NCBI GenBank assembly: GCA_964017185.1
Contig: OZ024876.1
Location: 13,889,726-13,953,725, forward strand
Reading direction: 5' to 3'
From: Rugalucina vietnamica
Lineage: Eukaryota > Mollusca > Bivalvia > Lucinida > Lucinidae
DNA: 64,000 bases
Shown here piece after piece: positions 19,487 to 41,541 of this stretch. Under the pieces are notes generated by a model. It saw only the letters and a list, made by a program, of their open reading frames with translations. It was not told the origin of the DNA and searched no databases. Numbering within the stretch: position 1 is the stretch's first letter; the number at the start of each line of letters is the position of its first letter. The position numbers and the translations under genes are program-made.

Positions 19487-20449
19487 TTATTTATGCTCTC
19501 TGGTTTTATTGTCACTTAGTATTTTAGTTCTTTCCACGTGAAGCTTGAATAACAGTTCTCTTGAATACAGCTCCAGGAATTCAGTCTCTGACGAGTCTGG
19601 TTGTAGAATGTTGTTAATGTCTGGATGACTGGAATCCAGTAGTAGTTGTGTACATCTGGCAGAATCCTCTAGTAGACTATTTATCTTCACACTGGAATGT
19701 TCAAACAGAGATCTTATCTTATTGAGATACACTAATCTAATGTTTTTAAGGCTTTCACATACTGTTATGAAATGCTCTCTTGTTTCAGGATTTTTATTGC
19801 ATAGCTGGCATGTTGGACTGACATTATACTGGTTGAATTTAGCCCTATTAGATTGCAATGTATATGTCCCAGTCAGTAACCTTACTTTTACTTCGGCACG
19901 TCTGACATCATACGTATTATTCCTCACCGAGGCGTAGACTTGGTGTACCTTCCCTATTTTTACAGCACCAGGATTTAGGTATCTGAGTGAGGACTTTGAT
20001 TTTATATCATCATGCCATTGTTGTTCTACAGCTTCATGGATTTTGGTTTTAACAGATTTCTTCCATTGTTCTTTTGTCGGTGGGTTTTCCAGAAGCTCAT
20101 AGGCCGAGGGTAGGTCATAGGTGTTTAATATTATCCTGACACTGGAGAACCAACTCTTCTCAGAAATGCTTCTAACAGCAAGCTGCCTTACTGCTATGTC
20201 GTTTTCAATGGATGACTGGTCTCTAACAACCCTTCCAAAGAGAGATAGGATGTTCTTTTCGACACAAGCAGATATTGGAAGAATACCTAGCAGAGCCAAT
20301 GCCGCAGTATCAGAAGTCTTAAGTGGAAGATTTTGAATTTGTTTCATAGATCTCCGTTGAAATGCTTCAAGCTGTGTTGTATCCTTTTTTCTCATACTAA
20401 GAACCTCCAGACCATACACTAATCTAGGAACCACATACTTCATCCACAT
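19487..20449 (-). pseudogene. LINE ORF C-terminal region with CCHC finger
   Basis: Continuation of the RT after a frameshift: MWMKYVVPRLVYGLEVL (thumb), then an approximately 300-residue C-terminus with a zinc finger CQLCNKNPETREHFITVC (C-x2-C-x8-H-x4-C). This finger type closes many LINE ORF2 proteins. The shift near 20450 is a small indel: the sequence around QSKHVDEVCGS and MWMKYVVPR overlaps in two frames. Confidence 0.85.
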
Positions 20450-22607
20450 GTTTGCTTTGATAGATTTGTTTCAGCCCAGACTTACCATGGAAGCCAGCGC
20501 CCATTAATGAATAAGCAGTTCTACGCCCCAGGTTCACCTTCTCATCAATGTTAGGAGTGCACTTGATTGACCTGGACACGCCCAAATGCACAGTCAGGTC
20601 TTCCACTGGAACATTATCACCGTATAGGTTGATGTTAGGTTCTTGATGAGCATCATAGTTCAGGATCACTGTCTTTGTGGGGTGTATGGTATAGTGTTCC
20701 CTGTTGGCTTGGAGTTCTGCAGAAGTCATCATTGGTTGGAGTTCAGATAAGTCTTCAGTGATGAAACATAGATCATCAGCAACAGTCACATGGGGAATCC
20801 TCACTGTTCCAATAAGCTTCCCACAGAATCTGTCTTCAATATCGAGGAGAAAGGAATTGTTGTATCGTTTGTAGTGGGGGGCGGACAAGATCCCTCCTTG
20901 CCGCACCCCCTGGCGTATAACGACCGTTGAGGATAAAAAACCATCCCACTTGACCTTGGCAGACATGTTAGTATACAGATCTTTCATGAGAAGCCAGTCG
21001 TCCCCAGAAATACCATCCAGATATAGTTTTCGCAGTAGAGAGTCATGGTCAACGACATCAAAGGCTTTCTGTACATCCAGCGCCGCTACAAACAAAGGCT
21101 TCTTCTGTTGTTTAGACTCCTGAATACACTCACTCAGTATCATGGCTGCATTCATGGAGGAGGTGTTCTCTGTGAAACCCTTCTGCAATCTGGATTGAGT
21201 GGTTTGTAGACTTGGGTTGTGCCTGCTACTCAGGATATGTTCTATAATCTTTAGGATGACAGGAGTTACAGATATTCCACGGTAGTTAGAGGGGTTTGTA
21301 GCATCACCTTTCTTGTATACTGGAGTTAGGATAGCCTCTTTCAGCAAATCTGGAACTTTCCTTAGCCTAAAGATGCCGTTGACCATGACCACCAAGACAG
21401 GAGAGATTTCGTTGATACACAGACTAAAATGTTCACTCATCAGACCAAAAGCATCAGCAGCTTTATTGTTTTTCAGCTTTGCTAGGGCTTTTCTAATTTC
21501 CTCTTCAGTGACTAGGTCAATAGGTTTTGATGATTGATGACAAATTTCCTCTATGTGTAGAAGGTCAGATTTAACGTTATTCAAGTAGCTTTCATCAAAT
21601 TTAGGATTATCCTTCGGTGTTGCTAGGTCATGGAAGTGGTCTTGCCATCCAGAGCAAATTCCTTCGGAGGAATCATACTTGGTACCATTTACCGTCAGAG
21701 ATCTAGTTTGGGAGCTGTCAGTCTTCCTCTGCATGCGGACCAGGGCATGGAAAGATTTGGTGCTATTCTCATTATCCATAATTTTTTTCATTTTTGATTC
21801 TCTGGAGATAGCTTCGTTCCGCCGCACTGCTTTTCTTAACTGTATTTTGGCTTCTTTCATTTCATGAAAGTGCAAGGAATTGGCAGATCGCTCAGGCTTC
21901 CCAGCTGCCTTCCATTCCCCCCATCTTCTCCTAGACTCACGGATAGCAGAGTAGACATCGTGACTCCATTTCTGTTGATTCTTTGTAGGTTTCTTGAAAA
22001 CTTCTGGTTTATAGTTTGGGATGCTAGTTTCTGTGGCCCCCCTGAGTATATCAGTTAGAGTTCGTATTTGGCACTGCAAATCATACATACTCGTTGCTGC
22101 CTGGGTATCATGGAAAGAATTTCTGACCCATCTTCTGACAGTTTCTTTGTATAGATGTACATTACACGATGCCCATTTAGGTCGAACCGATATTTTAATC
22201 TTTTTCACACTCTGTGCCTCAAAATTCATTTTTATGTCTATTGATAATAGGGTGTGGTCGGAGAGATTCAAATGGTTCCTTTCAGCAACAGTGGTTGGTT
22301 TTAAGATGAGATTCTGATCACAGTTTGTGAAAATGTAGTCAATTTCAGATTCATCCTTGTTATTTTCATGGAAGAAAGTTGAAGTTCCACTTTGAAAATG
22401 GCCCAATTGAGATTTAGACACAAAATCTGTTAGCATTTGGTCTTGTTGATTTCCATGTCTTTTTAATAATGATGAGTTCATGTCGCCACACAGTATAATA
22501 CTATGGGTGCTTTCATAGGTGTGTATAATTTCGTTGAGTTGATCCAACGTAGAAATAAACTCAGTGGGATCTCCTACAGCTGAGTCCTTCTTTATATACT
22601 TTCTACT
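20450..22607 (-). pseudogene. LINE endonuclease (C-part) and reverse transcriptase
   Basis: Begins inside the APE endonuclease (IILCGDMNSSLL, then EIDYIFTNCD and NLSDHTLLSID, carrying the Asp, Asn and His of the active site). The RT fingers and palm follow: LAKLKNNKAADAFGLMSEHF, ILTPVYKKGDATNPSNYRGI, LFVAALDVQKAFDVVDH (motif A), VRQGGILSAPHYKRYNNSFL, and VTVADDLCFITED (motif C with the Asp pair). The frame is lost near 20450, where the C-terminal region continues in another frame. Disrupted at its 5' side by the plus LINE. Clade not assigned. Confidence 0.9.
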
Positions 22608-25600
22608 GTCAACCAAAACTAATGAGTTCCCCCTGCCCAGCTAGATTTTCGTGTAGAGAACTAGCAAACTCCTAGATGGGTTGCCGTCCAAGGCTAACGA
22701 GCCCCATCTGCACCGCATGGCAACAGGTAGTACTGATTACATGTTACAGTAGCAGATAATCTGACCTGACTATAATCTGACCTCCTAGGAGTTTACAGGT
22801 CTCTAAACAAAACCTATGAAAGGGTAGATGGAGCCCTTCAGCTGTGGCCAGCAATTCATCTAGGAAAAGGTAATTCCAAAATAAAACCTGTGTGTCTGGA
22901 TATGCCTGGTCCAGATATGCAAAGACTGTTTCGGTAGACGGAGCGGAAGAAATCATCAGATTCAACGGTTCGGAAAGCGATACAGCAACATGTTGTGGAA
23001 CATGCGGAGCGTGATAAGGCACTATAGATGTTACGGTCATCCACTGCATCCAAACCTAACTCCAGACGTCTTGACCTGTGTCTTGCCTCTGGGCACAGTT
23101 GGGTGAGGACGAGTGAGTGAGGTTGACGCTGCGCACCTCTTCCTCACTATAATCCAATTTCAAAGCGCACGTCATCTTATTTCTCAACACACAAGCACTT
23201 GCCTACACAACAATTTCATCACACATGCACCCACATACCTACAAAAGTCCTGTGGCGATGAGCGAGCGGCGAAGCAGCAGGTGTAGGACACACTGGGAGC
23301 TGTAGTTGCAGACCTGCACGCAGGCGGCTCAGTTCTATATGGTCGTTTTCCGTGAGGAGAAGCAGTAAGCGAAATTCGGCAGTCGGCTGAGCGACTGAGC
23401 AGACCTATTTAGGACCGCACTGCTCACCCCCGTAGCATGGGGAAGGGGCTAGAAAAGGTGCCCTAAACAATTGCCTGCTTCAAACCCCCTGGCTGGTTAA
23501 CCGCGATCAGCGGGGATCCCTTTTTAGCGGTCGAAAAAATAAGAAAAAAACAAAGATAATCCCTTTGAGGATTGGCGCATGGAATGTGCGAACATTGATG
23601 GACAGTGCTGGGTCAAATAGACCGCAGCGTAGAACGGCCCTTGTGGGCAGAGAACTTGGGAGGTATGGAATTCAGATAGCAGCTCTGAGTGAGACTCGGT
23701 TAGCAGATGTTGGGGAGATCAAAGAAGTTGGTGCTGGATACACCTTCTTCTGGAGTGGACGCAAAAGTGAAGAGAGGCGTGAAGCAGGAGTTGGCTTTGC
23801 CATTAAAACAGAACTTGTTGGTAAGCTTTCAGGATTGCCAAAAGGCATCAATGACCGCCTAATGACATTGAGACTTCCTCTGTCAGGCAATAAACATGCA
23901 ACTATTGTCAGTGCCTATGCACCCACGATGACCAATCCAGATGAGGTTAAAGACAAGTTCTATAATGACTTAGACGACATTATTTCTGCTACACCCCGTA
24001 CAGACAAACTTATCCTTCTTGGAGACTTTAATGCCAGAGTTGGTACAGACCACCAGACCTGGGAAGGAGTTATAGGTCCAGAAGGTGTTGGAAAGTGCAA
24101 CAGCAATGGTCTCTTGCTTTTAAGGAAGTGTGCTGAACATGATCTTCTAATCACCAACACAGTCTTTCGTCTACCTAACAGAAATAAAACATCCTGGATG
24201 CATCCCCGTTCCAAACATTGGCATCTCATAGACTATGTCATAGTGCGGAGAACAGATAGGCAGGATGTCAGAGTGACAAAGACTATGTGTGGTGCAGACT
24301 GCTGGACAGACCATAGACTGGTTGTCAGCAAACTCAACCTTAGAATCCAGCCTGCGAGGCGACCTCAAGGCAAGAAAGCTGCTAAAAGACTGGATGTCTC
24401 AAAGCTGAATCAAGACAGCATGCGACAAGCTTTCTTAACAGACATTTGCAACCAACTGGATGCAATCAATCTCAGTTCAGAGAACCCCGAAGAAAACTGG
24501 ACAGTCTTCCATAAAACAGTTCATTCTTCAGCTGCTACTACTTTAGGACATCCATCTCGCAAACATCAAGACTGGTTTGATGAGAATGATGACGAAATTC
24601 AGAAGCTTCTTGAAGAAAAACACAGATTGCACAAGGCACATCAAGATGATACTAGCTCAGTATCCAAGAAAGCAGCCTACAGCAACATTTGTAAGACAGT
24701 CCAGACCAAGCTTAGGGACATGCAAGATTCCTGGCTGAGGAAGAAAACAGAAGAAATTCAGTCTTTTGCAGACAGAAAGGACATGAAGAAATTTCATGAT
24801 GCACTGAAAACCATCTATGGCCCTAAGAGTTCTGGAGCCACCACATTACTCAGTGCAGATGGAAACACTCTTCTCACAGACAAAGAGGCTATCTTGAAAA
24901 GGTGGGCAGAACATTTCAATAGTGTGCTAAATCGACCATCAAGCATCAATGAGGATGCAATTGACAGACTGCCACAGATAGAGTGCAATGTTCTGTTAGA
25001 TGAATTTCCAACCGTCATGGAAACAAGAAAAGCAGTTCAACAACTGTCTTCTGGCAAAGCTCCAGGTGCAGATGCAATTCCTGCAGAGGTTTATAAGGCC
25101 GGGGGGCTACCCATGGCAGAGAAACTGACCGAGCTGTTTCACTGTATGTGGAGGAAGGAGGCCATCCCACAAGAATTTAAGGATGCTTCCATAATCCACC
25201 TATACAAGCGGAAAGGAAATCCACAAGTCTGTGACAACCACAGAGGCATTTCCCTCTTATCGATTGCTGGGAAGATACTAGCAAAAATTCTGTTGAACCG
25301 CCTGAATGTTCATCTTGATCAGAAGGGACTTATCCCAGAAAGTCAATGTGGATTCAGAAAGGACAGGGGGACGATAGACATGATCTTCACAGCAAGACAG
25401 CTTCAGGAGAAATGCCAAGAGCAGAATGTAGATCTATACATGACGTTTGTCGACCTCACCAAAGCGTTTGAACCAGTTAGTCGTGATGGACTGTGGAAAA
25501 TCATGGCCAAGTTTGGCTGTCCACCCAGATTCATAGCAATGGTGCGGCAATTTCATGATGGCATGCAGGCACGTGTGCAAAATGATGGAGAGTTCTCTGA

Positions 25601-26811
25601 ACCCTTTGAGGTAACAAATGGGGTCAAACAGGGCTGTGTTATGGCACCAACACTGTTCAGCATGATGTTTTCTGCCATGCTCATGGATGCTTTTCAGGAC
25701 AGTGACACTGGTTTTCCAATCAGGTACCGTTTTGATGGCAACATATTCAATCTCAGAAGGTTGCAAGCCAAAACTAAGGTGCAGACCGATGTGCTAGATG
25801 AGCTCCTCTATGCAGATGATATGGATAAGAATGCCAGCTCAGAGGCAAAAATGCAAAGAGCCATGGATCAAGTCTCACAGTCATGTGATAACTATGATCT
25901 CACAATCAGCACAAAAAAGACAGAGGTTGTACACCAGCCAGCACCTGGAAAACCGTACAATGAACCAACCATCACTGTGAATGGAGAAAAACTGAAAGTT
26001 GTTGATAAATTCACCTACCTGGGAAGCACTCTTTCCAGAGCAGTGCACATTGATGATGAGGTCACTGCAAGAATTGCAAAAGCCAGTGTAGCATTCGGAA
26101 GACTCCGTGCAAATGTCTGGGAGCGAAATGGAATCAAGCTTGACACCAAGCTGAAAGTCTACAAGGCTGTGGTACTTCCGACCCTCTTGTATGCATGTGA
26201 GACCTGGACAGTATACCAGCGTCATGCAAAGAGACTTAACCATTTCCACTTAAGCTGTTTGAGAAAGCTGTTAAAAATCAAGTGGCAAGACAAGATCCCA
26301 GACACAGAGGTCCTGAAGAAAGCAGGGATGCAAAGCATGCATACTGTCTTAAAGCTAGCACAGCTAAGGTGGACCGGCCATGTTATAAGAATGCCTGATG
26401 AGCGACTTCCAAAGAAAGTCTTCTATGGAGAACTACAAGAGGGAAAGCGCTCTCAAGGTGGCCAGAAGAAACGCTACAAAGACACCCTGAAAGCCTCTCT
26501 GAAGGATTTTGACATACCAATTGGGTCTTGGGAACAGACTGCACAGGAGCGATCAAAGTGGCGAGGTCTCATCAACAAAGGAGCAGCTCTTTATGAAAAA
26601 AAGAGAATCTGTGAAGCTGAAAGAAAGCGCAGAGAACGCAAAGCCAATACCAATGGGCCACCAGCTGATTCAATGACATTGACTTGCTCTACTTGCAACC
26701 GACAGTTTAGAGCTAGAATTGGCCTAGTCAGCCATCAAAGAACTCACCAACACACACGAACCTATTCAAGAAATAATGATGGTCTTTCTCATTAGTGAGA
26801 GACGAACGACC
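22608..26811 (+). mobile_element. Plus-strand LINE, near full length
   Basis: Insert bounded by a 12-bp duplication (22596-22607 and 26812-26823). It holds a 5' UTR of about 950 bp, one ORF (23565-26795) and a very short 3' end finishing GAGAGACGAACGACC with no poly-A. The first 170 or so bases (22608 to about 22780) are inverted relative to the same segment in the copy at 488-1902, as twin priming would give. Variable-length duplications in three copies (12, 9, 11 bp) indicate target-primed reverse transcription. The ORF layout resembles RTE-like elements, but the clade is not proven. Confidence 0.9.
23565..26795 (+). CDS. LINE polyprotein: APE endonuclease, RT, C2H2 finger
   Basis: 1076 codons, uninterrupted. 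Endonuclease at about 1-245: RIGAWNVRTL, IAALSETRL (Glu), VSAYAPT, LLGDFNARVG, HLIDYVIVRR and WTDHRLV (Asp-His). RT at about 480-760: GKAPGADAIPAEVY, IIHLYKRKGNPQVCDNHRGI, YMTFVDLTKAFE (motif A Asp), NGVKQGCVMAPTLFSM, ELLYADDMD (motif C). Thumb-like FTYLGSTLS, YACETWTVY and RWTGHVIRMPD follow, then a basic region and a C2H2 finger CSTCNRQF...HQRTH. The ATG is the first in frame after 5' UTR stops. Compared with the copy at 28095-30755 the last residues differ by a small frameshift after HQHT. It could be an active protein. Confidence 0.9.
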   Translation: MRIGAWNVRTLMDSAGSNRPQRRTALVGRELGRYGIQIAALSETRLADVGEIKEVGAGYTFFWSGRKSEERREAGVGFAIKTELVGKLSGLPKGINDRLMTLRLPLSGNKHATIVSAYAPTMTNPDEVKDKFYNDLDDIISATPRTDKLILLGDFNARVGTDHQTWEGVIGPEGVGKCNSNGLLLLRKCAEHDLLITNTVFRLPNRNKTSWMHPRSKHWHLIDYVIVRRTDRQDVRVTKTMCGADCWTDHRLVVSKLNLRIQPARRPQGKKAAKRLDVSKLNQDSMRQAFLTDICNQLDAINLSSENPEENWTVFHKTVHSSAATTLGHPSRKHQDWFDENDDEIQKLLEEKHRLHKAHQDDTSSVSKKAAYSNICKTVQTKLRDMQDSWLRKKTEEIQSFADRKDMKKFHDALKTIYGPKSSGATTLLSADGNTLLTDKEAILKRWAEHFNSVLNRPSSINEDAIDRLPQIECNVLLDEFPTVMETRKAVQQLSSGKAPGADAIPAEVYKAGGLPMAEKLTELFHCMWRKEAIPQEFKDASIIHLYKRKGNPQVCDNHRGISLLSIAGKILAKILLNRLNVHLDQKGLIPESQCGFRKDRGTIDMIFTARQLQEKCQEQNVDLYMTFVDLTKAFEPVSRDGLWKIMAKFGCPPRFIAMVRQFHDGMQARVQNDGEFSEPFEVTNGVKQGCVMAPTLFSMMFSAMLMDAFQDSDTGFPIRYRFDGNIFNLRRLQAKTKVQTDVLDELLYADDMDKNASSEAKMQRAMDQVSQSCDNYDLTISTKKTEVVHQPAPGKPYNEPTITVNGEKLKVVDKFTYLGSTLSRAVHIDDEVTARIAKASVAFGRLRANVWERNGIKLDTKLKVYKAVVLPTLLYACETWTVYQRHAKRLNHFHLSCLRKLLKIKWQDKIPDTEVLKKAGMQSMHTVLKLAQLRWTGHVIRMPDERLPKKVFYGELQEGKRSQGGQKKRYKDTLKASLKDFDIPIGSWEQTAQERSKWRGLINKGAALYEKKRICEAERKRRERKANTNGPPADSMTLTCSTCNRQFRARIGLVSHQRTHQHTRTYSRNNDGLSH

Positions 26812-28094: not shown

Positions 28095-30720
28095 AACACA
28101 GTCTTCCGTCTACCTAATAGGAACAAAACATCCTGGATGCATCCCCGTTCCAAACACTGGCATCTCATAGACTATGTCATAGTGCGGAGAACAGACAGGC
28201 AGGATGTTAAAGTGACAAAGACTATGTGCGGTGCAGACTGCTGGACAGATCATAGACTGGTTGTCAGCAAACTCAACCTAAGAATACAGCCTGCGAGGCG
28301 ACCTCAAGGCAAGAAAGCTCCTAAGAGACTGGATGTCTCAAAGCTGAATAAAGACAGCATGAGACAAGACTTCTTAACAGACATTTGCAACCAACTGGAT
28401 GCAATGAATCTCAGTTCAGAGGACCCCGAAGAAAACTGGACAGTTTTCCATAAAACAGTTCTTTCTTCAGCTGCAAGCACCTTAGGCCATCCATCTCGCA
28501 AACATCAAGACTGGTTTGATGAGAATGATGACGAAATTCAGAGGCTTCTTGAAGAAAAGCACCGATTGCACAAGGCACATCAAGATGATACTAGCTCAGT
28601 ATCAAAGAAAGCAGCCTACAGCAACATTTGTAAGACAGTCCAGACCAGGCTTAGGGACATGCAAGATTCCTGGCTGAGGAAGAAAACAGAAGAAATTCAG
28701 TCTTTTGCGGATAGAAAGGACATGAAGAAATTTCATGATGCACTGAAAACCATTTATGGTCCAAAGAGTTCTGGAGCCACCACATTGCTCAGTGCAGATG
28801 GAAACACTCTTCTCACAGATAAAGAAGCTATCTTGGAAAGGTGGGCAGAACACTTCAATAGTGTGCGTAATCGACCATCAAGCATCAATGAGGATGCAAT
28901 CGACAGACTTCCACAGATAGAGTGCAATGTTCTGTTAGATGAATTTCCTACCGTTACGGAAACAAGAAAAGCAGTTCAACAACTATCATCTGGCAAAGCC
29001 CCAGGTGCAGATGCAATTCCTGCCGAAGTTTACGAGGCTGGGGGGCTACCCATGGCAGAGAAACTGACAGAGTTGTTTCACTGTATGTGGAGAAAGGAGG
29101 CTATCCCACAAGAATTTAAGGATGCATCCATAATCCACCTATACAAGCGGAAAGGAAATCCTCAAGTCTGTGATGTCCAATCACAGAGGCATCTCCCTCC
29201 TATCAATTGCTGGGAAGATACTTGCAAAAATTCTGTTGAATCGTCTGAATGTTCATCTTGATCAGACGGGACTTATCCCAGAAAGTCAATGTGGATTCAG
29301 AAAAGACAGAGGGACAATAGAGATGATATTCACAGCAAGACAGCTTCAGGAGAAATGCCAAGAACAGAATGTAGATCTATACATGACGTTTGTTGACCTC
29401 ACCAAATCTTTTGACACTGTTAGTCGTGATGGACTCTGGAAAATCATGGCCAAGTTTGGCTGTCCACCCAGATTCATAGCAATGGTGCGGCAGTTTCATG
29501 ATGGCATGCAGGCACGTGTGCAAAATGATGGAGAGTTCTCTGAACCATTTGAAGTAACAAATGGGGTCAAACAAGGCTGTTTTCTGGCACCAACACTGTT
29601 CAGCATGATGTTTTCTGCCATGCTTATGGATGCTTTTCAGGACAGTGACACTGGTTTTCCAATCAGGTACCGTTTTGATGGCAACATATTCAACCTCAGA
29701 AGGTTGCAAGCCAAAACTAAGGTCCAGACTGATGTGCTAGATGAGCTCCTCTATGCAGATGATATGGATAAGAATGCCAGCACAGAGGCAAAAATGCAAA
29801 GAGCCATGGATCAAGTCTCACAGTCATGTGATAACTATGATCTCACAATCAGCACAAAAAAGACAGAGGTTGTACACCAACCAGCGCCCGGAAAGCCATA
29901 TAATGAACCAACCATCACTGTGAATGGGCAAAAACTGAAAGTTGTTGACAAGTTCACCTACCTGGGAAGCACTCTCTCCAGAGCAGTGCATATTGATGAT
30001 GAGATCACTGCCAGAATTGCAAAGGCTAGTGTGGCATTCGGACGACTCCGTGCAAATGTCTGGGAGCGAAATGGAATCAAGCTTGACACCAAGCTGAAAG
30101 TCTACAAGGCTGTGGTACTGCCAACCCTCTTGTATGCATGTGAGACCTGGACAGTATACCAACGCCATGCAAAGAGACTTAACCATTTCCACTTAAGCTG
30201 TTTGAGAAAGTTGTTAAAAATCAAGTGGCAGGACAAGATTCCAGACACAGAGGTCCTGACGAAAGCAGGGATGCAAAGCATGCATACAGTCTTAAAGCTA
30301 GCACAGCTAAGATGGACTGGCCATGTTATAAGAATGCCTGATGCGCGACTTCCAAAGAAAGTTTTCTATGGAGAACTACAGGAGGGAAAGCGCTCTCAAG
30401 GTGGCCAGAAGAAACGCTACAAAGACACCCTCAAAGCCTCTCTGAAGGATTTCGAAATACGAATGGGGTCCTGGGAACAGACTGCACAGGAGCGATCAAA
30501 GTGGCGAGGTCTCATCAACAAAGGAGCAGCTCTTTATGAAAAGAAGAGAATCTGTGAAGCTGAAAGAAAGCGAAGAGAGCGCAAAGCCAAAACAAATGTG
30601 CCACCATCAGACTCTATGACATTGACTTGCTCTACTTGCAACCGACAGTTTAGAGCCAGAATTGGCCTAGTCAGCCATCAAAGAACTCACCAACACACAT
30701 CAGCACTATTCAAGAAATAA
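28095..30720 (+). pseudogene. LINE ORF copy 2, truncated and frameshifted
   Basis: Two open frames that belong to one ORF: endonuclease C-part and RT fingers up to about 29175, then RT palm to C2H2 finger up to the TAA at 30718-30720. The break is at GTCTGTGATGTCCAATCACAG, where the intact copy has GTCTGTGACAACCACAG, an extra three to four bases with net shift. Motif A reads FVDLTKSFDTVSRDG and motif C LLYADDMD, so catalytic residues are kept downstream of the break. Not expressible as one protein. Confidence 0.9.
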
Positions 30721-32679: not shown

Positions 32680-32782
32680 GAAAAAAATGATAGGTTTACG
32701 ATTTTTGCTCAAAAGATTGATTGTGGGTACACGTCAGAACCGCCACGGCTATGCGGTTCTAACGAGTACCCACAATCTATTC

Positions 32783-33944: not shown

Positions 33945-34120
33945 GTTTTGTTATGTATGACAGTTACTTGTTGAAAGATGTGCATTCAGTACTGGTAAAC
34001 TTCCCAAGGGAGTATGCCCAGGAAAGTATGATGTTATACATATGATGTTTACTTGTTGTCCTTAGCAATTATTTACTTTTAGTGTCCCAGATATTGGACA
34101 TAAACAGGTTGTTTACTTCA

Positions 34121-34138
34121 GAATTTTCTAGAAATTTC
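34121..34138 (+). promoter_or_regulatory. Perfect four-unit heat shock element, U3 array 1
   Basis: GAA at 34121, TTC at 34126, GAA at 34131, TTC at 34136: four alternating pentamers in exact 5-base register. HSF1 trimers bind three or more such units. The 3' LTR repeats it at 40168-40185. Confidence 0.75.
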
Positions 34139-34198
34139 AAATTGTTCTTTGACGGAAAAGTCCGGAAAAATCTAAAAAAAAGAACCTGGAAAGATGTA

Positions 34199-34216
34199 GA
34201 ATCTTCTAGAAAAATC
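34199..34216 (+). promoter_or_regulatory. Heat shock element, U3 array 2
   Basis: GAA 34199, TTC 34204, GAA 34209 in register, then ATC (one mismatch) at 34214. Counterpart at 40251 in the 3' LTR. Confidence 0.7.
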
Positions 34217-34232
34217 TTTTTTTATGTCAAAA

Positions 34233-34255
34233 GAATATTGTGGAATTTTCTGGAA
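34233..34255 (+). promoter_or_regulatory. Heat shock element, U3 array 3
   Basis: GAA 34233, TTG 34238 (one mismatch), GAA 34243, TTC 34248, GAA 34253: five pentamers in register, four perfect. The base after the last GAA differs between LTRs but the array is kept in both. Confidence 0.7.
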
Positions 34256-34272
34256 TGATAATGGCCTCTCTA

Positions 34273-34285
34273 GAATATTCCAGAA
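34273..34285 (+). promoter_or_regulatory. Heat shock element, U3 array 4
   Basis: GAA 34273, TTC 34278, GAA 34283, with partial units CTC at 34268 and TTA at 34288. Confidence 0.7.
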
Positions 34286-34333
34286 CATTAAATTTTGGTA
34301 AACAACTTGTTATTTTTAGTATATGATATCATA

Positions 34334-34361
34334 GAATTTGCTGGAAGAATCCTGAATGTTC
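34334..34361 (+). promoter_or_regulatory. Promoter-proximal heat shock element, U3 array 5
   Basis: Six pentamers in register: GAA 34334, TGC 34339, GAA 34344, ATC 34349, GAA 34354, TTC 34359. Four are perfect and two have one mismatch. It ends eight bases before the TATA box, where HSF sites lie in heat shock promoters. Confidence 0.65.
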
Positions 34362-34369
34362 CTCAGTGC

Positions 34370-34377
34370 TATATAAG
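34370..34377 (+). promoter_or_regulatory. LTR TATA box
   Basis: TATATAAG, followed by GGGCTACAAATTTTC. Transcription would start about 25-30 bases downstream, near 34400, setting the U3/R border. Present at 40422 in the 3' LTR. Confidence 0.75.
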
Positions 34378-34787
34378 GGCTACAAATTTTCATAAGGACA
34401 ATCTTTGGGTACTGTTACTATTAAGAAGTCAAAATCTATCTTACTGGAATTTAAACTTATTCTTGGATTACTTTGTGATATTCGATTCTGGATTGGGACA
34501 TAGTGCTATTTTGAAACAAACTTTAATTCTTGGGATCAGAAACTGATACAGACTTGTGTTAAAAAATTCTGAGGGACATTCAGACATTCTTTAAGGAAAT
34601 TAACATCTTGAAAGGTATTGTACATTCATTTTTGTTTGATTGTATATATGCTTTTGATTGTTTCACATGTAATTACTGGTTAAATCACTTCTAAATAGAT
34701 TTGTTAAATTTTAAACAAAGCTTGTTGCTGGCTAACCAACTTGTTGGTTTCCTTAATCTTCTAGTTACGCCTGGCACGTAACAGAAT

Positions 34788-34894: not shown

Positions 34895-37177
34895 ATGTCA
34901 TTCAAACTAAGTGACTTTATTGCTGCGCCTTCTCAGGAGCTGTTAGATAAGGCCAAAAAGAGTGACCTCTTAGACATAGCTGATCATTATGGGTTGTCAA
35001 ATATCAAGACTTCCATGTTAAAACATGAAATTAAGAACACTTTGATTCAGTTTTTTGTTGACGAGGAAATTTTTGATTCCTCGGCTACTTCTCAGATTCT
35101 AGTCACTCAGACTCACTTGCAGTTGAGGGAACTAGAAATCAAAAGACAAATTGAGATGGAAAAACTAAAATTTGAGTATGAAGAAAGAATAAGGTTGGAA
35201 ACTTTAGAGCGGGATGAAAGAATAAGGGCAGAAAAGGCCGAAAGGGAAGAAAGAATAAGATTGGAAACTTCAGAACGGGAAGAAAGAATGCATAAACAAA
35301 GGTTAGAAATGGAAGAACGAGAGAAGGAGAAACAAAGAGCTTTAGAATATGAAAAATTAGAACGAGAAGAACGGCTCGAAATTGAAAAAGAAAAATTGAG
35401 GTTTGAAAACGAAGAAAAAGAAAGAGAAAGGCTATTTCAGTTAAGAATCAAAGAAATTGAATTTAATGAAAAATCAAAATCAAAATCAAAATCTTTATCT
35501 TCAGACACAAGCAAAATATTTGATGTCACAAAACACATTCGTCTCGTTCCTCCATTTCAAGAAATAGAGGTTGACAAATATTTCTTACATTTTGAGAAGG
35601 TAGCAGAAAACTTGAAATGGCCAAAAGAGCATTGGGCCTTGCTTTTGCAAAGTGTTGTAATTGGTAAAGCTCCAGAAATTTACACTCAGCTTTCTCTTGA
35701 GCAAAGCTCAGATTATGATACAGTAAAGGAATTTATCCTTAAGGCTTATGAGCTGGTCCCTGAGGCATACAGGCAGAAATTTAGAGACTGTAGAAAAGAA
35801 CATGACCAGACTCATGTTGAGTTTGCTAGAACAAAAGAGCAACTATTTGATAGATGGTGGTCTTCAAAGAAAGTAGGTTCTGATCATGCAAAGCTAAGGC
35901 AGCTCATGCTTGTTGAGGAATTCAAACGGTGCATAAATTCTGATGTTAAGGCTTTCTTGAACGAAAGAGAAGTTGAAAACTTGGAAACAGCAGCACGTTT
36001 AGCTGATGACTATGCTTTGACTCATAAGGCTTCATTTGTCAACAAGCCATATCCTAGGAAACCATATAACCCTCAATCAAAGCAAATTACCCCTCAGTCA
36101 AAACCATATTCCCCTCAGTCCGGTCCCAAAGCCAATCCCAGTAATCCCACTGACAATTCCAGTCCAAAACCCAAATTTTCTAGTGAAAACAAAGGACAAA
36201 ATCCCTTATCCCAGCCAATTTGTAATTATTTTAAGAAAACTGGCCACATTATTTCTGAATGTTTGGCACTGAAACGAAAGAAAGAAAGAGAAAATCAAGA
36301 TAGTGCTAAACCGACAGGTCTCACCTCCTTAAAGGCTAAACCACGGTCTTGTATCCAGGAAGAAAACCCTATACTGACCAGAACTTGTAAAGAGTCAGTC
36401 TCTGAGGATTCTATTATGGAGATTTATGAACCATTCTTATCAGATGGTTTTGTGTCACTTAACAGTGACTCTGCCCAGTCTACCCCTATCAAAATCTTAC
36501 GAGATACCGGAGCTTCTCAATCCCTTATCTTGGCAGATACCTTGCCATTTTCCGAGAAGTCTTCTTCTGGGACAAGTGTCCTTATCCAGGGCGTAGAGTG
36601 TGGATTTGTTAACGTACCCCTCCATAATATCTATTTGTCCTCTGACTTAGTAACAGGTCCCGTGGCTGTAGGTATAAGACCTTCCTTACCCTTTAAAGGT
36701 ATTCATTTGCTGTTAGGCAATGATTTGGCAGGAGATAAGGTTGTGGTAAACCCACTTTTGACCAGCACACCATGTGTTGATCAACTGCCTGATCCCATTG
36801 AGCAGGAAATTCCTGACCTTTACCCTTCTTGTGCTGTTACTAGGGCAATGGCTAAGAAAGCCAAATTATATGATGGGATGCAGGACATAAATTTAACTGA
36901 CACTTTGATAGGTCAGTCTTTTAATAAAGAGATTTCAGCATCTCTTTCCCCTAGTCAGTCTGATATTCAGACTGACCCTAGCAATCCAAGGTCGGGGTCA
37001 GAAAATGACCTTTCACCCTCAACGTCAAATGATCAAGGTCATGACCAGCTGTCAAGGTCACAGCTTTGTAAAGAACAACACAGTGATCCTGAGATCTCGC
37101 CTTTATTTGAAAGGGCTTTTAATGAAAATGAAATATCACAGGTTCCTGTTTGCTATTATGTCAAAAATGGCATCTGA
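34895..37177 (+). CDS. Gag-protease of the Gmr1-like element
   Basis: 760 codons from the first ATG after the leader. An N-terminal helical segment (1-70) is followed by a long charged coiled coil rich in E/R/K (about 75-190). A capsid region (about 210-375) has a second half, starting PEAYRQKFRDCR at 289, that resembles the SCAN domain. The nucleocapsid has one CCHC-like knuckle (443-456) in which the second Cys is Phe446. The aspartic protease has LRDTGAS (Asp537) and LLLGNDLAG as the flap-side partner. Ends at TGA 37175; the downstream integrase is in the -1 frame. Gag, protease and integrase would be read as one polyprotein only by frameshifting. Confidence 0.9.
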   Translation: MSFKLSDFIAAPSQELLDKAKKSDLLDIADHYGLSNIKTSMLKHEIKNTLIQFFVDEEIFDSSATSQILVTQTHLQLRELEIKRQIEMEKLKFEYEERIRLETLERDERIRAEKAEREERIRLETSEREERMHKQRLEMEEREKEKQRALEYEKLEREERLEIEKEKLRFENEEKERERLFQLRIKEIEFNEKSKSKSKSLSSDTSKIFDVTKHIRLVPPFQEIEVDKYFLHFEKVAENLKWPKEHWALLLQSVVIGKAPEIYTQLSLEQSSDYDTVKEFILKAYELVPEAYRQKFRDCRKEHDQTHVEFARTKEQLFDRWWSSKKVGSDHAKLRQLMLVEEFKRCINSDVKAFLNEREVENLETAARLADDYALTHKASFVNKPYPRKPYNPQSKQITPQSKPYSPQSGPKANPSNPTDNSSPKPKFSSENKGQNPLSQPICNYFKKTGHIISECLALKRKKERENQDSAKPTGLTSLKAKPRSCIQEENPILTRTCKESVSEDSIMEIYEPFLSDGFVSLNSDSAQSTPIKILRDTGASQSLILADTLPFSEKSSSGTSVLIQGVECGFVNVPLHNIYLSSDLVTGPVAVGIRPSLPFKGIHLLLGNDLAGDKVVVNPLLTSTPCVDQLPDPIEQEIPDLYPSCAVTRAMAKKAKLYDGMQDINLTDTLIGQSFNKEISASLSPSQSDIQTDPSNPRSGSENDLSPSTSNDQGHDQLSRSQLCKEQHSDPEISPLFERAFNENEISQVPVCYYVKNGI
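36221..36262 (+). other. Damaged zinc knuckle in Gag
   Basis: The motif is C-N-Y-F-K-K-T-G-H-I-I-S-E-C. The canonical knuckle is C-x2-C-x4-H-x4-C; here the second Cys is replaced by Phe (codon 36230-36232). RNA packaging would probably be impaired. Confidence 0.8.
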
Positions 37178-38364
37178 TGAGAAAATGGCGTCCTCCGGAT
37201 GTCTCCGCAGAAGATGAGTGGACTGTTAACCACCAAATTGTGGTTCCTAGGGTTTATCGCCCTGAAATCTTAAACTTGGCTCATGAAACACCCATGTCAG
37301 GCCATTTAGGTGTAAATAAGACCTATCACAAGATTCTAAATCATTTCTACTGGCCAGGATTAAAATCTGATGTTTCACAGCATTGCAAATCCTGCCATAT
37401 TTGTCAAATGGTAGGAAAGCCCAATCAGACCATTCCAAAAGCTCAATTGCAGCCCATTCCTGCCTTTGATGAACCTTTCAGCAGAGTGATTATTGATTGT
37501 GTAGGTCCCTTACCCAAAACAAAGAAAGGTTGTGAATATCTTCTGACCATAATGTGTGCTTCAACTCGCTTTCCTGAAGCTATCCCACTCAGAAATATCA
37601 AGGCTAAAACAATAGTTAATGCACTTGTGAAGTTCTTCACATATGTAGGCCTCCCAAAATCTATCCAGTCAGACCAGGGCTCAAATTGTATGTCAGGAAT
37701 TTTTCAGCAAGTCATGTACGAACTTGGAATTAAGCAATACAAGTCATCGGCTTACCACACTGAAAGCAAAGGTGCCTTAGAAAGATTCCATCAAACTTTG
37801 AAAAACATGATCAGATCTTACTGCTTTGACACTGAAAAAGATTGGGATGAAGGCATACACTTGCTTCTATTTGCTGTAAGAGAATCTGTACAAGAGTCTC
37901 TGGGGTTCAGCCCATTTGAGCTTGTTTTTGGGCACACTGTACGTGGACCGTTAAAACTTCTAAAAGAGAAATTTCTCTCAGGTGATGACAGTTCTTTGAA
38001 CTTACTTCAGTATGTGTCTGATTTCAAAAACAGACTATCAAAGGCCTGTGATGCAGCTCGGTCCAATCTCAAATCTGCTCAAAGCAAAATGAAGATTCGT
38101 TATGATGAAAATGCTAAAGACAGAAATTTTGAACCTGGAGACAAGGTACTTGCTCTCTTGCCCATTCCTGGCAGACCTTTACAAGCTAGATATTATGGCC
38201 CGTATACTGTTGATAAAAAGTTAAGTGACGTGAATTACATTGTTAACACTCCTGGGAGGCGCAAGCAAAAACAGCTTTGTCACATTAATATGCTTAAAAA
38301 GTACATTGATAGAGATAGTAATGTTATTTCATCAGTAAATATAGTTAATTCTGTCCCTCATGAA
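37165..38364 (+). CDS. Integrase of the Gmr1-like element
   Basis: Open in the -1 frame relative to Gag. The region joins Gag near KNGI/LMRKWRPP, so it is taken to start around 37165-37175 rather than at an internal start. An N-terminal HHCC zinc-binding domain (HETPMSGHLG, then CKSCHICQ) is followed by the DDE core: IDCVGPLP, SDQGSN and SKGALERFHQ with 35 residues between second Asp and Glu. The GPY/F module is FEPGDKVLALLPIPG and QARYYGPYTV. No chromodomain. The open frame runs to 38499, but homology passes to the RT frame near 38364-38378. Confidence 0.9.
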
Positions 38365-39848
38365 CAAAATCAAATGACTCTGAGGACTTCAACTTGGAGA
38401 AATCTGATCCCTCGTCATCGAAACTCCAGAATTCTGACATACTACAGAATCTTGATCAGAAACTGTCTCACCTTGATTCAGACAAAAGACTTGAACTGAA
38501 ACAGTTAGTTCTCGAATATGAGCACTTATTTCCGGACATTCCATCCAGAACTGACAAAATCTATCATGATGTTGACACTATTGAAGGTTCAAAACCTGTA
38601 AAGCAACATCCTTACAGAATGAACCCTGTAAAACAGCAATATCTTAGGGAAGAAGTTCAATATTTGCTGGACAATGATTTCATTGAACCCAGCCAAAGTG
38701 AATGGAGTTCTCCTTGTATTCTTGTACCAAAGCCAGACGGGACATTTAGAATGTGCACAGACTATCGAAAAGTCAATTCTGTCACTAAAACAGACACTTT
38801 TACCATCCCACGAATCGATGACTGCATTGATAATATTGGACATGCCAAGTATGTTACAAAGTTCAATCTGCTAAAGGGATTTTGGCAGATACCCCTCACG
38901 GACAGAGCAAAGGAGATCTCGGCATTTGTTACACCAGATGGACTGTACCAGTATAAAGTCATGCCATTTGGAATGAAGAACTCGCCTGCGACTTTTCAGC
39001 GGCTGGTCAACAGTTTGATTTCCAATCTGGATGGCTGTAAAGCCTATATCGACGACGCTATTATCTTCAGTGAGGAGTGGCAACAACACTTGCAGACAAT
39101 CAGAACATTCTTTGACCGGCTAAGTGATGCTAAACTAACTGTGAACTTGGCAAAAAGTGAATTTTGCCATGCAAACTTGACATTTCTTGGACACATTGTA
39201 GGTCAAGGTCAGGTAAAACCTGTAGAAGCTAAAGTTGAGGCTATCTCAGATTTTCCTGTACCTACTAGCAAAAGACAACTGATGCGCTTTCTGGGTATGG
39301 CTGGATATTACAGGAAATTCTGCAACAACTTCTCGGCTATAGCTGAGCCTCTGACAAACTTGCTTGGTAAGAAGGCCAAGTATGTTTGGACAGATGACTG
39401 CCAGAAGTCATTTGATAAGTTCAAGGCCATACTTAGAAGTGCTCCGCTTCTCTTAGCACCAAGTTTTGACAAAGAGTTCAAGTTGGCTGTAGATGCCAGT
39501 GATGTTGGTGCAGGCAGTGTATTGTTGCAAGAAGATGACAATGGTGTTGACCATCCTGTTTGTTATTTTTCCAAAAAGTTTAACAAGCATCAGAGAAATT
39601 ACTCTACCATAGAGAAAGAGTGCCTATCTCTAATCCTTGCGCTTCAGCACTTTGAAGTTTACTTAGCTTCTTCACATGCACCAATTGTTGTCTTCAGTGA
39701 CCACAATCCACTGACTTTCATACATAAAATGAAAAACAAGAACCAGCTTTTACTCAGGTGGAGTCTCATGTTGCAAGAGCACAATCTTGACATCAGACAT
39801 ATCCGAGGAAGAGATAATATCATTCCAGACACCCTAAGCAGAGCTTAA
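38364..39848 (+). CDS. Reverse transcriptase-RNase H of the Gmr1-like element
   Basis: Open from a stop at 38361 and again in the -1 frame relative to integrase. RT: DNDFIEPSQSEWSSPCILV, DGTFRMCTDYRKVN, motif A, YKVMPFGMKNSPATFQRLVN, AYIDDAIIFS (motif C) and LTFLGHIVG. RNase H: LAVDASDVGAGSVL (Asp), YSTIEKECLSLI (Glu) and FSDHNPLTFI (Asp). In motif A the sequence is KFNLLKGFWQ where the family has Asp; the codon at 38865-38867 is AAT. A catalytic metal ligand is therefore missing and this copy should lack polymerase activity. Ends TAA 39846-39848, followed by a spacer and the polypurine tract. Confidence 0.9.
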   Translation, partial: TKSNDSEDFNLEKSDPSSSKLQNSDILQNLDQKLSHLDSDKRLELKQLVLEYEHLFPDIPSRTDKIYHDVDTIEGSKPVKQHPYRMNPVKQQYLREEVQYLLDNDFIEPSQSEWSSPCILVPKPDGTFRMCTDYRKVNSVTKTDTFTIPRIDDCIDNIGHAKYVTKFNLLKGFWQIPLTDRAKEISAFVTPDGLYQYKVMPFGMKNSPATFQRLVNSLISNLDGCKAYIDDAIIFSEEWQQHLQTIRTFFDRLSDAKLTVNLAKSEFCHANLTFLGHIVGQGQVKPVEAKVEAISDFPVPTSKRQLMRFLGMAGYYRKFCNNFSAIAEPLTNLLGKKAKYVWTDDCQKSFDKFKAILRSAPLLLAPSFDKEFKLAVDASDVGAGSVLLQEDDNGVDHPVCYFSKKFNKHQRNYSTIEKECLSLILALQHFEVYLASSHAPIVVFSDHNPLTFIHKMKNKNQLLLRWSLMLQEHNLDIRHIRGRDNIIPDTLSRA

Positions 39849-39983: not shown

Positions 39984-39995
39984 GAAGAGGGGAAG
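39984..39995 (+). promoter_or_regulatory. Polypurine tract
   Basis: GAAGAGGGGAAG immediately before the 3' LTR; the primer for plus-strand DNA synthesis. Confidence 0.9.
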
Positions 39996-40834
39996 TGTTA
40001 TGTATGACAGTTACTTGTTGAAAGATGTGCATTCAGTACTGGTAAACTTCCCAAAGGAGTATGCCCAGGAAAGTATGATGTTATACATATGATGTTTACT
40101 TGTTGTCCTTAGCAATTATTTACTTTTAGTGTCCCAGATATTGGACATAAACAGGTTGTTTACTTCAGAATTTTCTAGAAATTTCAAATTGTTCTTTGAC
40201 GGAAAAGTCCGGAAAAATCTAAAAAAAAAAAAAGAACCTGGAAAGATGTAGAATCTTCTAGAAAAATCTTTTTTTATGTCAAAAGAATATTGTGGAATTT
40301 TCTGGAAGGATAATGGCCTCTCTAGAATATTCCAGAACATTAAATTTTGGTAAACAACTTGTTATTTTTAGTATATGATATCATAGAATTTGCTGGAAGA
40401 ATCCTGAATGTTCCTCAGTGCTATATAAGGGCTACAAATTTTCATAAGGACAATCTTTGGGTACTGTTACTATTAAGAAGTCAAAATCTATCTTACTGGA
40501 ATTTAAACTTATTCTTGGATTACTTTGTGATATTCGATTCTGGATTGGGACATAGTGCTATTTTGAAACAAACTTTAATTCTTGGGATCAGAAACTGATA
40601 CAGACTTGTGTTAAAAATTCTGAGGGACATTCAGACATTCTTTAAGGAAATTAACATCTTGAAAGGTATTGTACATTCATTTTTGTTTGATTGTATATAT
40701 GCTTTTGATTGTTTCACATGTAATTACTGGTTAAATCACTTCTAAATAGAGTTGTTAAATTTTAAACAAAGCTTGTTGCTGGCTAACCAACTTGTTGGTT
40801 TCCTTAATCTTCTAGTTACGCCTGGCACGTAACA
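39996..40834 (+). repeat. 3' LTR
   Basis: 839 bp, TG...CA ends. It has the same five heat-shock-element arrays (first at 40168, last ending about 40413) and TATA box (40422). Differences from the 5' LTR include G to A near 40054, T to G near 40308, T to G near 40751, 13 instead of 8 A after 40220, and one A fewer near 40615. Confidence 0.95.
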
Positions 40835-40984
40835 GTTTGTTTGCATTTATATCTTACGTCCCACGTGCATGTAAAAGGTAGGGACGTATGGAGAAAGGAC
40901 GTATCATCCAAAATACTGGAGAACCTACGACAAGAAAGATTCCCTATACAGATTTTATGTTTTATGCCAGCAGTTTTATGCCAA

Positions 40985-41305: not shown

Positions 41306-41541
41306 TGAGCCGCCCCATGGGAAAACCAACAATCTGCATAGGCGAAAACAAAGGCGCAGATCAGCTTCGCGGTAACCGCGAAGCTGATCAGCGCCTGTGT
41401 TTTCGCTACTCGGATAGTACAATTCCTCCTCTACTTAACTCCAAAATTTCAAGCTTTTAGCCTGCTTCTGAAGCTGTACAGGCCGGTTTGTGTCAGACCT
41501 GAACGGAAACCACATTGTTGGTTTTCCCACGAGGCGGCTCA
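41306..41541 (+). mobile_element. Hairpin MITE, complete copy
   Basis: TIRs TGAGCCGCCCCATGGGAAAAC and the inverse ending GGCGGCTCA; perfect inner arms GCGCAGATCAGCTTCGCG with GTAAC at the centre. The best-preserved copy of the family. Confidence 0.85.

Follow-up and report, generated by a model that had tools for sequence, protein, structure and literature searches.

Results

Organization and classification of the element

The 64-kb stretch of DNA analysed here (the window) contains an LTR retrotransposon on the forward strand, with the following features:

33945..33948, + strand: target-site duplication GTTT, left copy (flanks read)
33949..34783, + strand: 5' LTR, 835 bp, with TG...CA ends (LTR-LTR alignment)
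34370..34376, + strand: TATA box, TATATAA
34788..34805, + strand: primer-binding site TGGGGGCTCGTCCGGGAT, which we take to be of the tRNA-Pro type
34895..37177, + strand: ORF1, gag with SCAN domain (domain match)
37150..38499, + strand: ORF2, integrase (H2C2, rve core and p58 C-terminal; domain matches)
38394..39848, + strand: ORF3, reverse transcriptase and RNase H (domain matches)
39984..39995, + strand: polypurine tract GAAGAGGGGAAG
39996..40834, + strand: 3' LTR, 839 bp
40835..40838, + strand: target-site duplication GTTT, right copy

The two LTRs of this copy are identical at 831 of 840 aligned columns, the remainder being 3 substitutions and 6 gap positions. By eye, the flanking 4 bases match on both sides in all nine LTR pairs with readable outer flanks; in a tenth pair one flank was unread. 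The coding region of the window copy is broken into three frames. A search with a related gag query gave 5509 candidates, of which the 47 with the highest scores fill 48 rows, one element taking two of them. A single open frame of at least 1647 residues is seen in 35 of these rows, in a sample biased toward intact copies. Copies with an unbroken frame therefore exist beside the broken window copy. A retroviral aspartyl protease match near the C-terminus of ORF1 is weak and below threshold.

The domains follow the order SCAN gag, integrase, and then reverse transcriptase/RNase H, which places integrase upstream of reverse transcriptase. The SCAN-type capsid in gag (PF02023, E 1.8e-10) is presumably a Gmr1-linked feature. 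The other Pfam matches (RVT_1, RT_RNaseH, Integrase_H2C2 and Integrase_p58_C) are to gypsy-type and not Copia-type models, which places the element outside the Copia superfamily. Relatives such as P0007 (1156 aa) match gag and integrase models but no reverse transcriptase model, the pattern expected when integrase comes after gag. The first-pass annotation had named the element Ty3/gypsy; the domains fit this assignment, which is incomplete, since integrase precedes reverse transcriptase in a Gmr1-like order. On its predicted domain order and content, rather than on a tree, the element is classified as Gmr1-like Ty3/gypsy. Other gag groups show 74-86% identity by aligned columns among 120 proteins. 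The best matches in the genome for queries P0060 and P0054 reach merely 76-77% and 85%, respectively, and these two proteins therefore probably come from other genomes. No relatives were confirmed in viral and prokaryote collections.

Other repeats are also present in the window. LINE-type frames at 19487-22616 (-), 23565-26795 (+) and 29170-30720 (+) match reverse transcriptase and partly endonuclease, with a sub-threshold match to zf-RVT. Repeats with long inverted arms (e.g. GCAGATCAGCTTCGCGGTAACCGCGAAGCTGATC), at 41307, 41642 and 44286 and at 32702 and 41071, are probably small non-autonomous DNA transposons. Searches for RNA families and tRNAs within the 64-kb window found none.

Heat shock element arrays upstream of the TATA box

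A strict array was defined as a run of at least three alternating GAA and TTC units with 2-base gaps, and U3 was taken to extend up to 34369, directly before the TATA box. The following heat shock elements (HSEs) lie in U3 of the 5' LTR, with their counterparts in the 3' LTR:

34121..34138, + strand: A1, perfect four-unit HSE
34199..34211, + strand: A2, perfect three-unit HSE
34233..34255, + strand: A3, perfect three-unit HSE at 34243-34255; five units with one mismatch when counted from 34233
34273..34285, + strand: A4, perfect three-unit HSE
34334..34361, + strand: A5, promoter-proximal degenerate six-unit array, 16 of 18 core bases matching
40168-40185, 40251-40263, 40295-40307 and 40325-40337, + strand: strict arrays of the 3' LTR

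The four strict arrays, A1-A4, span 165 bases, and each consists of at least three alternating nGAAn units, the form of a heat shock element; A5 by itself does not strictly have this form. The first-pass annotation had described five arrays in strict register, the last being a six-unit promoter-proximal one. Four of them (one of four units, three of three) are as described. The fifth does have six units in register and ends 8 bases before TATATAA (34370), but its regularity was overstated: four units are perfect, two are one base off (TGC and ATC), and the longest strict run is two units. In inducible promoters, activator sites sit directly upstream of the TATA box. The 3' LTR had been said to keep all five arrays, and it does, A5 being identical in the LTR-LTR alignment. 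Outside both LTRs, the 64-kb window has one strict array, at 24602.

Dinucleotide shuffles gave a mean of 0.020 strict arrays for 34121-34369 (20,000 shuffles), 0.010 for U3 (15,000 shuffles) and 0.016 for the whole LTR (8,000 shuffles), with a maximum of two in each set. The claim that the LTR promoter is built from HSE arrays is well supported, with four strict arrays observed against approximately 0.02 expected and none of 43,000 shuffles reaching three. When chains were trained on the 257-base region itself, a less strict control than the shuffles, orders 1, 2 and 3 gave means of 0.02, 0.06 and 0.25 arrays (5000 each), with a maximum of three at order 3. When gap lengths of 0-6 were tried for alternating triplets in U3, only gap 2 yielded any (5 windows), and a search of U3 for same-strand triplets and reversed words found none. 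Recent tandem copying of a longer unit was also considered. The 15-base flanks of the arrays are identical at 0-9 of 15 positions per comparison (the top value, 9, is for the right side of A1 versus A2), and the cores are common to the arrays while the flanks lack consistent similarity, which makes such copying unlikely.

The arrays are a family-wide feature

We searched the genome (1.09 Gb, 47 contigs) for perfect four-unit HSEs, a pattern that is its own reverse complement, each site being counted once per strand. There are 1578 such sites, whereas the pattern read in reverse gives 114. The exact 18-mer of A1 accounts for 1386 (648 + 738), or 88%, of them; the first 18 bases of A5 occur 1398 times, and the reversed controls of both 18-mers are absent genome-wide. 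Three-unit HSEs number 27,944, and the reversed control gives 9,774; the window family therefore does not dominate the weaker HSEs in the way that it does the four-unit ones. Among the first 100 three-unit places listed (contig C1), GAACGTTCCGGAA occurs 6 times, pointing to a further repeat family that has a fixed HSE.

The A1 18-mer makes up 48 of the first 50 four-unit places listed, and all of the first 15 that were fetched lie in family LTRs with 96-98% identity. Judged only by their spacing, 42 of the 50 sites fall into 21 pairs whose members lie 5.5-8.9 kb from each other, which fits the expectation for full-length elements; eight are single, one of these not being the A1 18-mer. A whole-LTR search gave 1487 candidates, 40 of which were scored and are all 98-100% identical, and ten LTR pairs differ by 1-7 substitutions per 810-834 bases. 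The family is a young, high-copy and recently multiplied gypsy-type retrotransposon.

Retention of the arrays was followed in 46 LTR copies, a non-random set comprising the two LTRs of the window, 28 other best whole-LTR matches, the first 15 four-unit sites listed and one further copy (L053). All four strict arrays are kept in 30 of these copies, three in 14 and two in 2, with a bias toward A1 retention from the 15 copies chosen by their perfect four-unit site. A5 is imperfect in all 30 copies checked unit by unit. Absence of the arrays from the family had been set in advance as a result that would count against the first-pass annotation; the A1 and A5 18-mers are instead present at the counts given above, and 44 of 46 copies have at least three strict arrays. 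Across family members, HSEs lie in U3 upstream of the TATA box, the arrangement sought in an ONSEN-like LTR retrotransposon. The LTR promoter consists of dense HSE arrays that are family-wide, not due to chance and directly upstream of the TATA box.

In places, copies follow each other at steps of approximately 6.0 kb (G000 C4:57832811-57847811 and C7:58416284-58425254). One LTR (L028) is preceded by a polypurine tract and followed by a primer site, and tandem elements seem to share an LTR. The primer-binding site has two main forms. Among 19 junctions inspected by eye (L001-L045), 12 have two extra bases (CTCGAGTCC), 6 carry the shorter form seen in the window copy (two with one change) and 1 has another form.

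Purifying selection on the HSE sites was sought in 30 and then in 46 copies, as well as in the 18-mer counts, and was not seen, the test being a weak one for copies this young. Variable sites amount to 10 of 57 in HSE cores, 3 of 28 in gap positions, 62 of 336 in other parts of U3 and 53 of 414 in the later LTR. Similarly, genome occurrences of the A1 18-mer (1386) barely exceed those of a control 18-mer located downstream of the TATA box (1352). As HSE cores are as variable as the rest of U3 and the two counts are nearly equal, purifying selection is unproven. One variant, 34283 G to A, is shared by 11 of 46 copies and alters unit 3 of A4.

A related family without arrays

Searching with a pattern of LTR end and primer site revealed 205 junctions, and 97 of the 100 listed belong, by reading, to two types. 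The second type marks a second family, whose gag is 67% identical to that of the window family over 738 aligned positions (one copy compared); the primer-binding site is common to both. U3 of the second family is unrelated, and none of the six LTR stretches fetched contains a strict array; five of them have the second junction type, while in the sixth (L052) the junction is a variant and the left part differs. Sequence windows with at least 8/9 matches occur once per second-family copy, versus 15 such windows and 5 strict ones in the window LTR. Since the second family lacks arrays despite the 67% identity in gag and the common primer-binding site, the arrays belong to the window LTR and are not a general trait of the gag-pol lineage. 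A young, high-copy, HSE-packed LTR family and a related family without arrays in one genome constitute a natural control.

The second-family U3 (L046-L050, L052) has its own repeated AATTCTC/GAGAATT palindromes (e.g. CTCTCTGGAGAATTC) upstream of a TATAAA box. These are perhaps sites of another factor.

A predicted stress-inducible promoter

Three places in the genome encode the DNA-binding domain of heat shock factor (HSF). For one exon, the best-matching PDB chains are those named Heat shock factor protein 1 (E 4.5e-15), followed by HSF4 and HSF2; the second place is HSF-like. The third, a more distant HSF-type DNA-binding domain, is found at G000 C2:5653989-5654258, inside an uninterrupted 529-residue frame.

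The LTR U3 is probably an HSF-driven, stress-inducible promoter, a reading of promoter sequence in which both HSF binding and stress induction are predicted. Heat or proteotoxic stress would release HSF trimers, which would bind the four strict arrays together with the degenerate proximal A5; bound HSF would then drive transcription from the TATA box at 34370, and the transcript would be the genomic RNA of the Gmr1-like gypsy retrotransposon. We infer that such a promoter helped the family to spread.

An unlikely alternative is that HSF does bind the arrays and that the element relies on HSF activity of a basal or developmental kind, as in gametes, early embryos or tumour-like cells. Heat would then not be the natural trigger, and the response of somatic tissue to heat may be silenced. 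Nothing observed here sets this reading apart from heat induction; strongly inducible promoters typically have several three- and four-unit sites in clusters, which argues against it. HSF, on the other hand, has roles in gametogenesis and development, and a mobile element needs germ-line activity for inheritance. In reporter assays, the bovine leukaemia virus LTR also gains basal activity from HSF1 by way of an HSE (PMC10236774).

It is very unlikely that the arrays serve another reader of TTC/GAA palindromes, such as STAT, or are functionless relics. TTC-GAA half-sites also occur in STAT sites, and selection is not visible within this young family; STAT sites, however, typically have a 3-base gap (2-4) and no runs of alternating units, whereas U3 has only the 2-base register, in runs of three and four. 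As for relics, the four runs stand directly upstream of the TATA box and 44 of 46 copies retain all or most of them, which makes a relic hard to credit, although the youth of the copies weakens this point. Hardly any credence is left for a chance or low-complexity artefact of an A+T-rich LTR: order-3 chains do come up to three arrays, but this explanation is refuted by the dinucleotide shuffles, which never exceed two, by the other gap lengths and by the window background of one strict array in approximately 62 kb; the empty LTR stretches of the second family also speak against it.

Stress activation of transposons in animals is often claimed and seldom tied to a clear promoter code. If the HSF-driven promoter proposed here is real, warming or proteotoxic stress would directly raise mutation load and spread HSF sites genome-wide. 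A bolder extension, which we hold to be improbable, is that the family is the genome's dominant stock of strong HSF sites, and that heat stress switches on several hundred of its copies at once, which titrate HSF and supply genes nearby with new heat-responsive promoters, thereby reshaping the heat-shock response.

Comparison with known elements

Integrase upstream of reverse transcriptase is the order reported for the Gmr1 clade of Ty3/gypsy (PMC8220671, PMC6238403), and the window element shares it. The consulted parts of these Gmr1 descriptions do not mention heat-shock sites in LTRs, and the second family described here is without them.

HSEs have been described in several other mobile elements. 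The terminal repeats of DIRS-1 from Dictyostelium are stated to contain an active heat-shock promoter (PMC2685390), a likeness to the window element, although DIRS-1 is of the tyrosine-recombinase type and its terminal repeats are inverted. Helitrons of Caenorhabditis carry a substantial share of the HSEs of these animals' genomes and are bound by HSF-1 (PMC6927752); they are DNA transposons, whereas the HSEs in the window sit in a retrotransposon's own promoter. In Cryptococcus, the LTR retrotransposons TCN12 and TCN3 have putative HSEs in their LTRs and are more mobilised at 37 C (PMC12810828), but these elements are fungal and have one or two putative sites. Among animals, HSF1 activates the LTR of bovine leukaemia virus through an HSE in U3 (PMC10236774); this LTR differs in having one short HSE and in belonging to an exogenous retrovirus.

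To the knowledge of the first-pass annotation, an array of this density had not been described in an animal Ty3/gypsy element. The open-licence full-text literature, as far as it was consulted, does not contradict this: it yielded no animal Ty3/gypsy LTR with several HSE arrays, only the single HSE that acts in the viral LTR, and other papers may exist.

A plant parallel is ONSEN, a copia-type element of Arabidopsis, in which heat raises RNA and extrachromosomal DNA and HSFA2 binds the LTR in vitro (PMC3907296). Its heat response element is located in the LTR, as are the candidate HSEs of the window family. ONSEN, however, is a plant Copia element with 8 reference-genome copies and what the source calls 'a heat response element' (PMC3907296), whereas the window element is an animal gypsy-type one with five arrays, approximately 1400 copies of the key site and a function that is predicted. 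HSEs in transposons and in a retroviral LTR were already known; the literature searched showed no case of such density and genome share in an animal gypsy LTR.
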